From Homoserinibacter gongjuensis (lineage in GTDB: Bacteria; Actinomycetota; Actinomycetes; Actinomycetales; Microbacteriaceae), in the NCBI RefSeq assembly GCF_030161875.1, contig NZ_BSVA01000001.1:2604001-2668000 (forward strand): a DNA stretch of 64,000 bases, written 5' to 3'. Below are positions 24,538 to 30,280 of the stretch, in pieces (position 1 is the first letter of the stretch; each line of letters starts with the position of its first letter). Both the position numbers and the translations under genes were made by a program. A model generated the notes under the pieces. It was not told where the DNA came from and did no database searches. It saw nothing but the letters and a program-made list of their open reading frames with translations.

Positions 24538-25436
24538 TCAGCGGGCCGGAACGGCGCCCGGCTCCGCGCCCTTGACGATGGGAACGCGCACGGCGCTGCC
24601 CCACTCGGTCCAGGACCCGTCATAGTTCCGCACTCCCTCGAAGCCGAGAAGATGGGTGAGCACGAACCAGGTGTGGCTCGAGCGCTCGCCGATCCGGCAA
24701 TAGGCGATCACGTTATCACCGTCGTTCAGGCCGGCGCCGTCGCGGTAGATGGCGTCGAGCTCGGCCTTCGACTTGAAGGAGCCGTCCTCGGCGACGGCCT
24801 TGCCCCACGGCACGTTCCGGGCGCTCGGGATGTGGCCCGCGCGCAGCGTTCCTCCTCGGGATACGCGGGTGCGGTGGTGCGGTCGCCCACATACTCCTCG
24901 GGCGAGCGCACGTCGACGAGAGGGTTGCCGAAGTGGGCCAGCACGTCCTCCTTGAAGGCGCGCACCGCCGCGTCGTCACGCTCGACGACGGGATACTCGA
25001 CGGGCTCCCGCACGGGAACCTCGGTCGTGTACGGGCGACCCTCGGCCTCCCACTTGGCGCGGCCGCCGTCGAGCAGCCGTACATCCTCGTGGCCGAAGAG
25101 CGTGAAGACCCAGAGGGCGTACGCGGCCCACCAGTTGTTCTTGTCGCCGTAGATGACGATCGTGTCGTCGCGAGAGATGCCACGGCCGCCGAGCAGCTTC
25201 GCGAAGCCCTCGCCGTCGAGGTAGTCGCGCTCGACCGGGTCGTTGAGGTCGGTGTGCCAATCGATCTTGACGGCGCCCTCGATGTGACCCGTCTCGTACA
25301 GCAGCACGTCCTCGTCGGACTCGACCACCACGAGACCCGGCTGCCCGAGGTGTTCCGCGAGCCATTCCGTGCTCACCAGTCGCTCGGGGTGAGCGAAGGC
25401 GGAGAAAGCGGGATTCGGGTCGGGCGCGACGGCCAT
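24538..25436 (-). CDS. Thiosulfate/3-mercaptopyruvate sulfurtransferase (frame slip)
   Basis: A 299-residue enzyme with two rhodanese domains. The first is inactive-type ([20 protein letters not shown]), the second carries the catalytic Cys about 247 in [14 protein letters not shown], a CRIGERS loop typical of actinobacterial SseA/CysA-type enzymes. The frame slips at 24851-24852: restoring one C (GGG instead of GG on the coding strand) gives the expected [25 protein letters not shown] precedes the ATG. It is first in the operon with sufE and the reductase, and diverges from zapE. Confidence 0.92.
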
Positions 25437-25585
25437 GGGGTTGTCTCCTTGCGGGTAGGATTTCTGTTATCCAGGGTAGGCACTCGCCACCCGGGCCGCA
25501 GGCACGTCGTAAGAGTTCGACACAGACCTCCGAGTACTGCAGCGGCCGTATTCCCGCCCGCCGCAGGCAGCCCCGGAAGGCCTTC

Positions 25586-26594
25586 ATGTCGCAGCAGTCC
25601 GCCGCGTCGCTCCTCGACCGTGCACCGCAGATGTCGGGCGCCGAGATGGCGGCCTCGCTCGAGCCGCCGCGGCAGTTCGCCGAGGCCAGTCTCGAGAGCT
25701 ACCGGCCCGATCCGGACTTCCTCGCAGGCGGAGGCGGTCGAGAAGGTACGGGCATTCGCGGATGCCATGCGCGGCGGCGGAGGCGGAGGTCGGGGCCTGT
25801 TCGGTCGCCGCAAGGCGCCCGAGGCGAAGCCCGGCATCTATCTCGACGGCGGCTTCGGCGTCGGCAAGACCCATCTCCTCGCGGCCCTGTGGCACGTGGC
25901 CCCCGGTCGCAAGTACTTCGGCACCTTCATCGAGTACACCGCACTCGTCGGCGCCCTCGGTTACGCGCAGGCGACCCAACTGCTGCGCGGGGCCTCCTCG
26001 TGGCGATCGACGAGTTCGAGCTCGACGACCCCGGCGACACGATGATGATGAGCCGTCTGCTGGGCGAGCTCGCCGCGGGGGTACCCGCATCGCCGCGACC
26101 TCGAACACGCCACCCAACGCCCTCGGCGAGGGCGCTTCGCGGCCGCCGATTTCCTGCGCGAGATCCAGGCTCTTGCCGATCGTTTCGACATCGTGCGGAT
26201 CGACGGACTCGACTATCGCCGGCGCGAGATCGAGGGTCACGCGATCACGACGGACGAGGAGCGGTTGCCCGAGGCCCTCTCGACACTCGCGGGCACGACG
26301 ACCCTCGACGACTTCGACGCGCTTCTGGCGCACCTCGGGCGCGTGCATCCCTCGCGGTACGTGCGGATGGTGGAGGGGCTCGCGGGCGTCGGCCTGCGGG
26401 GCGTGCACACTCTCGTCGACCAGACGGACGCGTTGCGTCTCGTGGCCTTCGTCGACCGGCTGTACGACGAGCAGGTGCGCGTTCTCGCCTCCGGAACACC
26501 GCTCGACGAGGTGTTCGGAGCGGAGATGATGGCGGGCGGCTATCGCAAGAAGTATCAGCGGGCCGTGTCGCGCCTCATCGCGCTGACGAACTGA
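25586..26594 (+). CDS. zapE: ZapE/AFG1-like ATPase (four frame slips)
   Basis: An AAA-type ATPase of the ZapE family, which in E. coli acts on the division ring under stress. Walker A is GGFGVGKTH, Walker B-like is LLVAIDEFELDDPGDT, and sensor-like TRIAATSNTPPNALGEGRF follows. The frame slips at 25720-25721 (net two bases short, PDPDF then SQAEAVEK), 25989-25992, 26076-26080 and 26130-26132; corrected length is 337 residues. This is the most damaged gene here. The last 20 bases overlap nhaA. Real decay cannot be fully excluded, but every slip is at a G/C run. Confidence 0.88.
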
Positions 26595-27724
26595 GGCGCG
26601 CCCTCCGCGCCACGAGGCCGGTGGTGACGCCGCCGAGCACGAGAGCCACGAGGGAACCGCCGAGCACGCCGAGGGTCGCGGATGCCACGAGTTCGGCATT
26701 CCCGCGGAACGCGAGTTCGGCCATGAGGAGCGAAATCGTGAAGCCCACGCCGCCCAGGGTGGCGACGACGAGCACTTCGCGCAGCGGCAGGGACGCCGCT
26801 CGTTCGCTTGCGGGCATCATCCCCCGCGCGAGGGTCGCCCCGAGCGTGATCCCCACGAGCTTGCCGACGGGAAGGGCGACCAGCACGCCCCACAGCACGG
26901 GTGAGATGCCGCCCTCCTTGATGTGCGGGACGACGACCATCGACGCGCTGAGCGCGAAGAGCGGCAGTACCGCTCCGTTGACCCAGGGCTCGAGGGCGTG
27001 GCGCACCCTGCCGGCGGGCCGCGAGGCATAGACGAGGCCGAGGGCGACGCCCGCGATGGTCGCGTGCACGCCGGAACTCAGCACGAGCACCCAGACCGTG
27101 ACGCCCAGCAGCACGAGGAGCACGCCCCGCGTCGCGGCATTCGGGCGCCGGCGCGCGCTGAGCCACCCGAAGGCGGCGATGAGGGGCACCGCGATGAGCA
27201 GCGGCACCGGCTGCAGCTCGCGCGTGAAGAACGCCGCGATGATCGCGATCGCGATGAGGTCGTCGAGCACGGCGAGTGCGAGCAGGAACGCCCGGACCCG
27301 CCGGGGAGTCCGCGGCCGAGCAGCGCGAGCACACCGAGCGCGAAGGCGATGTCGGTGGCGGTCGGGATGGGCCAACCGACGTTCTCGGCCGGGTCATGCA
27401 CGATCGCGAGATAGACGAGCGCGGGCACGACCACGCCGCCGGTCGCGGCGACGGCGGGGGCGAGGGCCTTGCGAGCGGTGTCGAGCTCCCCGTGGGTCAG
27501 TTCGTGTCGCAATTCGATCGCAGCGACGAGGAAGAACAGCGCGAGCAGCCCATCCGCGATCCAGTGCCCGGGGAGAGGTCGAACACCGGGACACCCGTAT
27601 CGCCGTGCCCATCACGGAATGCGATGACCGCCGCTCCGATGGGCGAATTGGCGATGACGAGGCCCGCAGCGGCGGCCCCCGCCAAGAGGATCGCGGCGAC
27701 ACGTTCGGAGCGGAGGAACTGCAC
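26575..27724 (-). CDS. nhaA: Na+/H+ antiporter NhaA (two frame slips)
   Basis: A membrane antiporter that exports sodium in exchange for protons and guards pH. The paired ion-binding Asp region is present (PTATDIAFALGVLALLGRGL and LALAVLDDLIAIAIIAAFF), as is the unwound-helix region VGFTISLLMAELAF. The GTG at 27724 gives the family start QFLRSERVAAILLAGAAAAG. The frame slips at 27570-27573 and 27297-27299, each one base short; corrected length is 383 residues. It converges with zapE and overlaps it by 20 bases; it diverges from amt across a GlnR-like site. Confidence 0.9.
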
Positions 27725-29189: not shown

Positions 29190-29221
29190 GGGGCGCCGTC
29201 TCCTCACGGGGGCGGCGCCCC
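29190..29221 (+). terminator. Hairpin after amt
   Basis: Perfect arms GGGGCGCCG (29190-29198) and CGGCGCCCC (29213-29221), 23 bases past the amt stop, with no long T tract. Confidence 0.65.
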
Positions 29222-29275: not shown

Positions 29276-30280
29276 ATGCCCGAACTGCTGCTGTTCGCCG
29301 CGCTCTGTTGCGCAGTGATGACGGCTGCGCTCATGTGGATGCTGCGGCCGCCAGGACCCGCGGAGGCGATCATCCGCGCGTGCGCGGCCGCGGCGGGTGC
29401 GGCCTCCGTGTCGGTCGCGATCGGGGTCGCGACGGACGCGGACACCGCGGCGTTCTTCCTCGCCTCGGCCTTCGCTGCCGCTCCCGTGAGCGTGCTGCTT
29501 GGGGCTGCGGCCCAAGAGGCCCGCCCGGGGCGCCGCGGGGTCGCGTGGGCGCTCGTGCTCACCTGGAGCCTCGTGGTGTTCCCGGTGTGCGCCGTCGTGC
29601 CGCCCCTCATCTTCGGCATGTGCGCGGAGAGCGAATGCCGCGTGGAGGACTTCGGAGGGGGACTGGCGCTGCTGGTGTCGTCTGCCGCATCCGTCTTGCT
29701 CGCCTGGCGGGCGCCGGGCGGTGTGGCCCGTGAGAGTTGGACCCGGTTCGCGCTGCCCGTGCTCCTCGTGTGGATCGCGGGTGCCCTCTGGCTCGCGAGC
29801 CTCGAGGGTGTGATCGATGCCTACACCTGGCGGATCCTGCTGGCCGCGTTGGCAGCGCCGCTTGCCGGTGCGGTCGCCTGGACGCTCGTCGACGTGCTGC
29901 GGCGATCCGATCGGCATCCGCTGCGCTCGGCCGCGGACGGGCTGCTCGCCGGTCTCGTGGCGATCGTGCCGGGAGCAGCGGGCATCTCGTTCCCGTGGAC
30001 GCTCGTCGTCGGCGCGCTCGCCGGCGCGGCGGCGGCCCTTGTCTACGGACTGCGACGACTGGCCACCGCGGGTCGTGCGGGGCACTGGGCTCTCGTGGTG
30101 CTCACGTCGACCGCGGTCGGGTACCTCGCGCCCGCCGTTGCCGGCGACTCGATCGGGTTTGTGTTCTCGGGACGTATCGCTGCCCTGGCGCCGCCGGTGC
30201 TGGCCTTCCTCGCTGTCGGTGCGCTGGGCGTGCTCGCGAGCGTGCCCAGCTGGGTGATCGGCGCGCGGCGAGGCTCATAG
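29276..30280 (+). CDS. Degenerate Amt-like membrane protein
   Basis: A 334-residue protein with about 9-10 hydrophobic helices and no close family I can name. Read beside the amt product, it follows the same plan with shorter loops: LVVFPVCAVVPP matches LVYFPVSAWVWG, RVEDFGGGLALLVSSAA matches VIDYAGGTAVHINAGAA, and DGLLAGLVAIVPGAAGISFP matches SGAVAGLVAITPSCANLSPL. Both pore histidines are replaced (Leu at the H171 position, about residue 133; no His at the second site). It therefore probably no longer conducts ammonium in the usual way and may sense or modulate. This homology is my own reading by eye. Confidence 0.7.
   Translation: MPELLLFAALCCAVMTAALMWMLRPPGPAEAIIRACAAAAGAASVSVAIGVATDADTAAFFLASAFAAAPVSVLLGAAAQEARPGRRGVAWALVLTWSLVVFPVCAVVPPLIFGMCAESECRVEDFGGGLALLVSSAASVLLAWRAPGGVARESWTRFALPVLLVWIAGALWLASLEGVIDAYTWRILLAALAAPLAGAVAWTLVDVLRRSDRHPLRSAADGLLAGLVAIVPGAAGISFPWTLVVGALAGAAAALVYGLRRLATAGRAGHWALVVLTSTAVGYLAPAVAGDSIGFVFSGRIAALAPPVLAFLAVGALGVLASVPSWVIGARRGS

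Follow-up and report, generated by a model that had tools for sequence, protein, structure and literature searches.

Directly after amt in the window (the whole stretch of DNA analysed here, 64,000 nt from Homoserinibacter gongjuensis) lies a gene whose product is, by descent, a member of the Amt/Mep/Rh superfamily, and which stands outside the functional family of Amt ammonium transporters, since it is without the twin histidines, the Phe215 gate residue and the C-terminal tail. Our preferred reading, to which we give a probability of roughly 0.4, is that this paralogue acts as a non-conducting subunit or close partner of Amt, in a bacterial family where GlnK is rare. With Amt/AmtB (PF00909, TIGR00836) it has in common the predicted fold, the 11 helices, the N-out/C-in topology, the Asp160 equivalent and the glycines of helices 8-10, but it is 334 rather than 411 residues long. 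The protein belongs to a larger subfamily; among the titles and abstract openings of open-licence papers we found none on such a bacterial paralogue. The features of the locus are collected in Table 1.

Table 1. Features of the amt-paralogue locus, in positions of the window
Feature	Position	Strand	Remarks
amt, canonical ammonium transporter, 411 aa	27932..29167	+	TIGR00836 386.8 bits (cut-off 343.3), PF00909 371 bits
GC-rich hairpin, 14 pairs, no U-tract, in the amt-paralogue gap	29190..29221	+	
Amt paralogue without pore histidines, 334 aa, 11 predicted helices	29276..30280	+	ATG start
Codons of outer Cys pair, C116-x4-C121, loop preceding helix 5	29621..29638	+	window-subclade feature
Codon of Asp125, equivalent to AmtB Asp160	29648..29650	+	Asp in 56/56 paralogues
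Codon of Leu133, at AmtB His168 place	29672..29674	+	
Codon of Trp172, at Phe-gate Phe215 place	29789..29791	+	
Codon of Val275, at AmtB His318 place	30098..30100	+	

Descent and predicted fold

The window paralogue matches PF00909 with 26.8 bits (E 2.7e-6), above the curated cut-off of 23.2, and this is the only domain detected in it at E <=10, with no fused kinase or other domain. TIGR00836 gives 30.6 bits (E 1.6e-7), far under its cut-off of 343.3, and BLASTP of the window Amt against the paralogue gives E 3e-7 across 75 residues; the two neighbours are 25% identical in alignment. An earlier note, made from the letters alone, had taken the protein for an Amt relative on the strength of its helix plan and a few local matches, and profile-profile comparison bears this out: hhalign of the paralogue against an Amt profile returns a probability of 97.3 (E 2.6e-11, 248 columns), against 0.6 (E 0.097) for a control with a segment of a different membrane protein encoded in the window. 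When paralogues and Amts are aligned, the quoted segments do lie opposite each other: VVFPVCAVV and VYFPVSAWV with one single-residue gap, EDFGGGLALL and DYAGGTAVHI with a shift of one residue, and GLLAGLVAIVP and GAVAGLVAITP. Searched alone against the PDB with phmmer, the paralogue sequence found no Amt, and its one match (E 0.12) is unrelated. Across the family, PF00909 matches 46 of 56 paralogues at E <=1, and intermediate members reach E 7e-60.

Two structure models were built. The first, from the window paralogue and four orthologues in an alignment without any Amt, is weak, with a mean pLDDT of 48; in Foldseek the top 34 PDB matches are all Amt/Mep/Rh chains at probability 0.97-1.00, with the next match dropping to 0.21, and its best E is 1.2e-3, so that none reaches 0.001. 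The second, for which five Amts were added to the alignment, has pLDDT 72 and pTM 0.75 and superposes on 305 residues of E. coli AmtB (Z 27.4, rmsd 3.7 A), and it is not independent evidence, because of those Amts; the first unrelated structure entry reaches only Z 12.3. The receptor Amts 8qj3, 8qj4 and 6eu6 are among the structural matches, as all Amts are. With 11 Lys/Arg in the inner loops and 2 in the outer loops, the charge distribution fits the N-out/C-in topology of Amt. Both models support the helix plan suggested earlier, and on their account the protein is predicted to have the eleven-helix Amt fold. Most Amt residues are retained in helices 5, 7, 8 and 9; helix 3 is uncertain, its alignment being shifted between alignments. 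The trimer interface of Amt is made by helices 1, 6 and 7-9.

Pore, gate and tail residues

Residues were counted in 56 paralogues and in 51 full-length Amts from the same loci, with AmtB numbers assigned by homology; the Amt counts omit the 4 of 55 segments that are not full length (L063, L081, L108, L118), and the residue counts omit the five loci L134-L138. The window Amt carries the twin histidines H171/H326, the Phe gate F103/F218 and the conserved C-terminal tail, and its F103, H171 and H326 have identical numbers in Ks-Amt5 (in the part of PMC5764959 consulted). For the paralogue, four differently made family alignments agree in setting Asp125, Leu133, Trp172, Leu176 and Val275 at D160, H168, F215, S219 and H318 of AmtB. 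That Leu occupies the place of the pore His171, and that no His stands at the second site, had been noticed before and holds in these four alignments and in a 10-row alignment as well, Val275 lying opposite His326. The window paralogue has only two histidines, 214 and 270, neither in a pore column, and Pro at the W148 place (family alignment and 10-row alignment). At the F107 place the four family alignments put Ala68, with Phe in 0-1 of 56 paralogues, but the 10-row alignment and hhalign put Phe66 there.

In the family as a whole the changes are uneven. The Asp160 equivalent is present in 56/56 paralogues and 51/51 Amts, and the Glu after S219 (Glu177 of the paralogue) in 55/56 and 47/51. Phe215 is found in 0/56 paralogues, in all four alignments, vs 51/51 Amts, and the C-terminal motif HG[EQ]..Y near the end likewise in 0/56 vs 51/51; this tail has a role in subunit communication and in GlnK binding. 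For the histidines the picture is mixed, with H168 in 6/56 paralogues vs 49/51 Amts (Glu in the other two) and H318 in 19/56 vs 51/51. To the question whether the key pore residues are always missing the answer is thus divided: 37/56 paralogues have neither pore His, but 13/56 keep the second only and 6/56 keep both, the same in four alignments. Pore residues vary among the paralogue subclades, with no common new set, and on a 69-row tree (36 of the 56 paralogues, and one Glu-bearing Amt among the rows) there is one change of Phe215 against five in each His column, counts that carry no direction.

One feature is peculiar to the window's subclade (genera g1, g10, g54, g58, g63, g70 and g87). 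A pair of cysteines directly before the Asp160 equivalent is present in 20 of its 21 members (the exception is G079), in 0/35 other paralogues and in 0/51 Amts. The pair is a derived gain of this subclade at the outer mouth, where C116 and C121 likely form a disulfide.

From these residues it would follow that the paralogue no longer carries ammonium as Amt does. Loss of His alone is no proof of lost conduction, since AmtB without one His can conduct NH4+ in a channel-like manner. In the same source (PMC7447429, as far as its text was available), yeast on low ammonium does not grow with the double-His variant of AmtB, and no current was recorded for the triple variant S219A/H168A/H318A; the window paralogue is altered at all three of these places. 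The available text also argues that Asp160 acts in transport and not in structure alone, and a constrained family that is mostly without both His and wholly without Phe215, that has Asp160 in 56/56 members and that includes intermediates, would be a natural experiment on this debate. As the sole natural variation of the twin-His it names a Glu that stands at the first His site of certain fungal Meps. L116 (G296, genus g80) and L115 (G147, genus g68) each have two tandem Amts, of which one aligns a Glu with the first pore His (L116 reads DFAGGTAVEIN), the change that PMC7447429, in the text available, reports only for fungal Meps.

Distribution, gene neighbourhood and origin

Among 398 Microbacteriaceae genomes we count 61 paralogue loci in 20 of 85 genera, a lower bound, because the search profile A2 holds intermediates and cannot separate paralogue from Amt. 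All 9 sampled genomes of the window's genus have the paralogue, among them Protaetiibacter mangrovi, Homoserinibacter sp. GY 40078 and the metagenome-assembled Micrococcales bacterium 72-143 and Microbacteriaceae bacterium BP8.4. Conservation of the pair, proposed as a check by the earlier note, is evident: in 47 of 56 aligned loci the paralogue shares the strand of amt and follows it at 53-349 nt. L074 has another gene between the two, at a distance of 1409 nt (a putative secreted protein of 360 aa, L074 2217-3299); in L084 the end of amt lies upstream of the paralogue at the contig start; and the remaining seven, all from genus g103, lack a neighbouring amt but have one elsewhere in the genome. 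Five further loci (L134-L138) have the paralogue directly after amt, which brings the number so placed to 53 of 61, with one more having an intervening gene. An amt is in the same genome for all 61 (48 in the sequence around the paralogue, L084 with an amt end upstream, 7 elsewhere and L134-L138 adjoining).

In the three g103 loci inspected, the paralogue is preceded by what we take to be the gene of a ZapE/AFG1-type ATPase, adjoined by a rhodanese-like gene. Both genes also neighbour amt in L109 and in the window, and since the pair is common to g103, the window and L109, the locus itself is old. On the 3' side of the paralogue we sought a conserved gene and found none in all lineages, the largest clusters looking like shadow frames. 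In 297 genomes of the order, searched with profile A2 at E <=1e-62, a threshold that weaker paralogues could escape, a single place outside the family was found (G611); it was rejected as a paralogue, being an ordinary Amt 57% identical to that of the window. Elsewhere in the phylum, G680, G798 (family f29) and G835 have weak best PF00909 matches (E 1.8e-11, 8.7e-4 and 7.4e-14) and are possibly other unusual Amt relatives or fragments.

The window paralogue begins 108 nt past the amt stop codon. A stem of at least 9 pairs is found in 45 of the 47 amt-paralogue gaps, and in several long gaps shuffled sequence gives an equal stem length. Several amt genes without a paralogue also have a strong stem on their 3' side, and for this reason the window hairpin probably marks the end of the amt transcript in this family. 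With a terminator-like hairpin between the genes in most pairs, joint transcription is doubtful; a promoter and terminator scan run on the co-transcription question found nothing, and co-transcription, weakened by the hairpin, was given up as an argument for partnership. Upstream of amt, at 24538-27512, rhodanese-like, ATPase and NhaA-like genes each appear to be in two frames, perhaps through indel errors of the assembly; unlike these, amt and the paralogue have intact reading frames. In L063 (G067) and L108 (G017) the amt beside the paralogue is split over two frames, by assembly error or by a real frameshift.

GlnK, a PII protein, is the usual regulator of Amt. The earlier note aptly remarked that the paralogue occupies a place often taken by PII genes: in a sample of relatives, PF00543 was found in 17 of 23 genomes from other families of the order, adjoining amt by coordinates in 17/17, vs 1 of 37 family genomes, and within the window's genus it was found in 0 of 9. 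Position next to amt is what the two share; GlnK is unrelated to the Amt paralogue as a protein. PF00543 matches are present in 50 of the 398 family genomes, 15 of them at >=86 bits. Fifteen PII places were inspected: nine weaker ones are without a canonical T-loop by eye and have no amt within 3.5-4.5 kb, and six stronger ones have the T-loop and lie beside an Amt 36-52% identical to that of the window. These six (L128-L133, in genera g94, g91, g21, g15 and g106) have a canonical glnK next to amt in what looks like an acquired pair. GlnK is rare in Microbacteriaceae. PII at >=86 bits is found in 0/61 paralogue genomes vs 15/337 other sampled genomes, too few for an association, and mutual exclusion was dropped as a statistical argument; weaker PII matches are present in 7/61 (G086, G096, G106, G114, G174, G395 and G416), all seven among the nine without a T-loop. 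Hypothetically, the paralogue replaces GlnK. It is not a required substitute, since most sampled family genomes show no strong PII match and no identified paralogue either.

The old duplication suggested earlier is supported by both trees. In FastTree, 56/56 paralogues form one clade (support 0.998), and in IQ-TREE (mixture model, quick method; 33 of the 56 paralogues and 26 of the 51 Amts) 33/33 do so, with SH-aLRT 100. The clade sits inside the family's Amts, its exact position there being unsure because of long branches flagged in the IQ-TREE tree. By the NG86 method, dN/dS is 0.06-0.30 in 14 paralogue pairs vs 0.02-0.33 in 10 amt pairs; in the 10 shared pairs, protein identity of the paralogue is below that of amt in 10/10 and dN/dS is above it in 7/10. 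By these comparisons the paralogue is kept by purifying selection and evolves faster than amt. The paralogue of L034 (G001) adjoins an Amt of a different branch from that of its congeners, as though the amt gene had been exchanged on the spot, and the paralogue keeps its branch in both trees. A partnership, if there is one, would therefore tolerate exchange of the Amt.

A partner for Amt, and other readings

Since selection maintains a copy whose transport machinery is dismantled, the paralogue probably has a new job beside the transporter. We envisage that a tandem amt duplication in an ancestor within the family would have set a second Amt-family protein beside the transporter. In this copy the fold of 11 helices and its topology would have been preserved, together with a structural core that comprises the Asp160 equivalent and, in helices 5, 7, 8, 9 and 10, glycines, Trp and small residues. 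Phe215 would have gone on the stem of the clade and the pore histidines afterwards, repeatedly; the C-terminal tail is absent too. The resulting protein may join the Amt trimer or sit against Amt and determine how active or abundant the transporter is, or where it lies, much as RhAG is accompanied by non-conducting Rh proteins. RhCE and RhD are not known to carry the pore His. These human proteins are paralogues of a conducting Amt/Mep/Rh protein and enter mixed trimers with RhAG (PMC10769835, in the part consulted); the window paralogue differs in being prokaryotic, of separate origin and equipped with its own Cys-pair loop, and a mixed trimer is for it only proposed.

The pairing and constant company of amt speak for such a partner, as do the loss of pore residues and tail from a retained fold and the cross-talk of active and inactive subunits known in the superfamily: inactive Mep1 inhibits Mep2 and Mep3 (the available part of PMC10433425), and in plant Amts nonfunctional monomers cross-inhibit when co-expressed (according to the portion of PMC6338640 consulted). 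Against it stand the terminator-like hairpin separating the genes in most pairs, the seven g103 loci without adjacent amt, the exchanged Amt of G001 beside an unexchanged paralogue, and the majority of sampled family genomes with neither identified paralogue nor strong PII. The fuller picture, in which a GlnK-poor lineage would regulate Amt by a dismantled copy in mixed Amt trimers, as an independent counterpart of the Rh blood-group proteins, we regard as rather unlikely. A true partner would mean a bacterial mixed-subunit ammonium transporter, and another control of ammonium uptake where PII is missing.

Second to a partner of Amt we rank a remodelled channel, somewhat improbable in our judgement, in which the paralogue would form its own homotrimer and conduct, through a pore now hydrophobic, some other small neutral solute or a gas, with Leu, Val and Trp in place of His, His and Phe and with the Cys pair shaping the outer mouth. 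The dN/dS constraint, the retention of the whole fold and of the Asp160 equivalent in 56/56, the new conserved Cys pair and the persistence of the paralogue without adjacent amt in g103 speak for such a channel, but the subclades differ in their pore residues without a shared new set, and 53 of 61 loci lie directly after amt, with one more behind an intervening gene.

An ammonium sensor, third in our ranking and distinctly unlikely, would bind NH4+ at the outer site close to the Asp160 equivalent and pass a signal on to a partner, as receptor Amts in Kuenenia and Shewanella do. These (Ks-Amt5, Sd-Amt1) use the Amt fold for a role other than uptake and are fold matches of the paralogue, as all Amts are, and the near-constant Asp160 equivalent (56/56) and Glu177 (55/56) agree with a binding site. 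But residues of the S1 site are altered (W148 to Pro, S219 to Leu176), whereas Ks-Amt5 retains S1, Phe gate and twin-His (PMC5764959 and PMC10433425, in the parts available). Ks-Amt5 combines its pore residues with a histidine kinase (PMC5764959, same part) and the window paralogue has neither; its C-terminus is short, it has no fused kinase or other domain, and no gene family common to all lineages follows it.

A decaying duplicate, a remnant that is being lost, seems to us very improbable. Identity under that of amt in 10/10 pairs, dN/dS above it in 7/10 and identification in only 20/85 genera (a lower bound) would suit such a gene, but dN/dS of 0.06-0.30 speaks against a pseudogene, which was rejected as a candidate; no stop lies within the match in 9/9 genus members, single stops counted in some matches lie where the match extends beyond the gene end (checked for G005), and W, D, G and Cys positions are fixed over large distances. 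Membership in another transporter family, for which one could cite the 25% identity to the neighbouring Amt, the single-sequence PDB search and the Foldseek E of only 1.2e-3 for the Amt-free model, is dismissed by the PF00909 score over cut-off, the hhalign probability of 97.3, the Amt matches of both models and the intermediate members at E 7e-60; in the VIA list, urea transporters and RnfD/NqrB also occur, at Z 11-12, far under the 27 of Amt.
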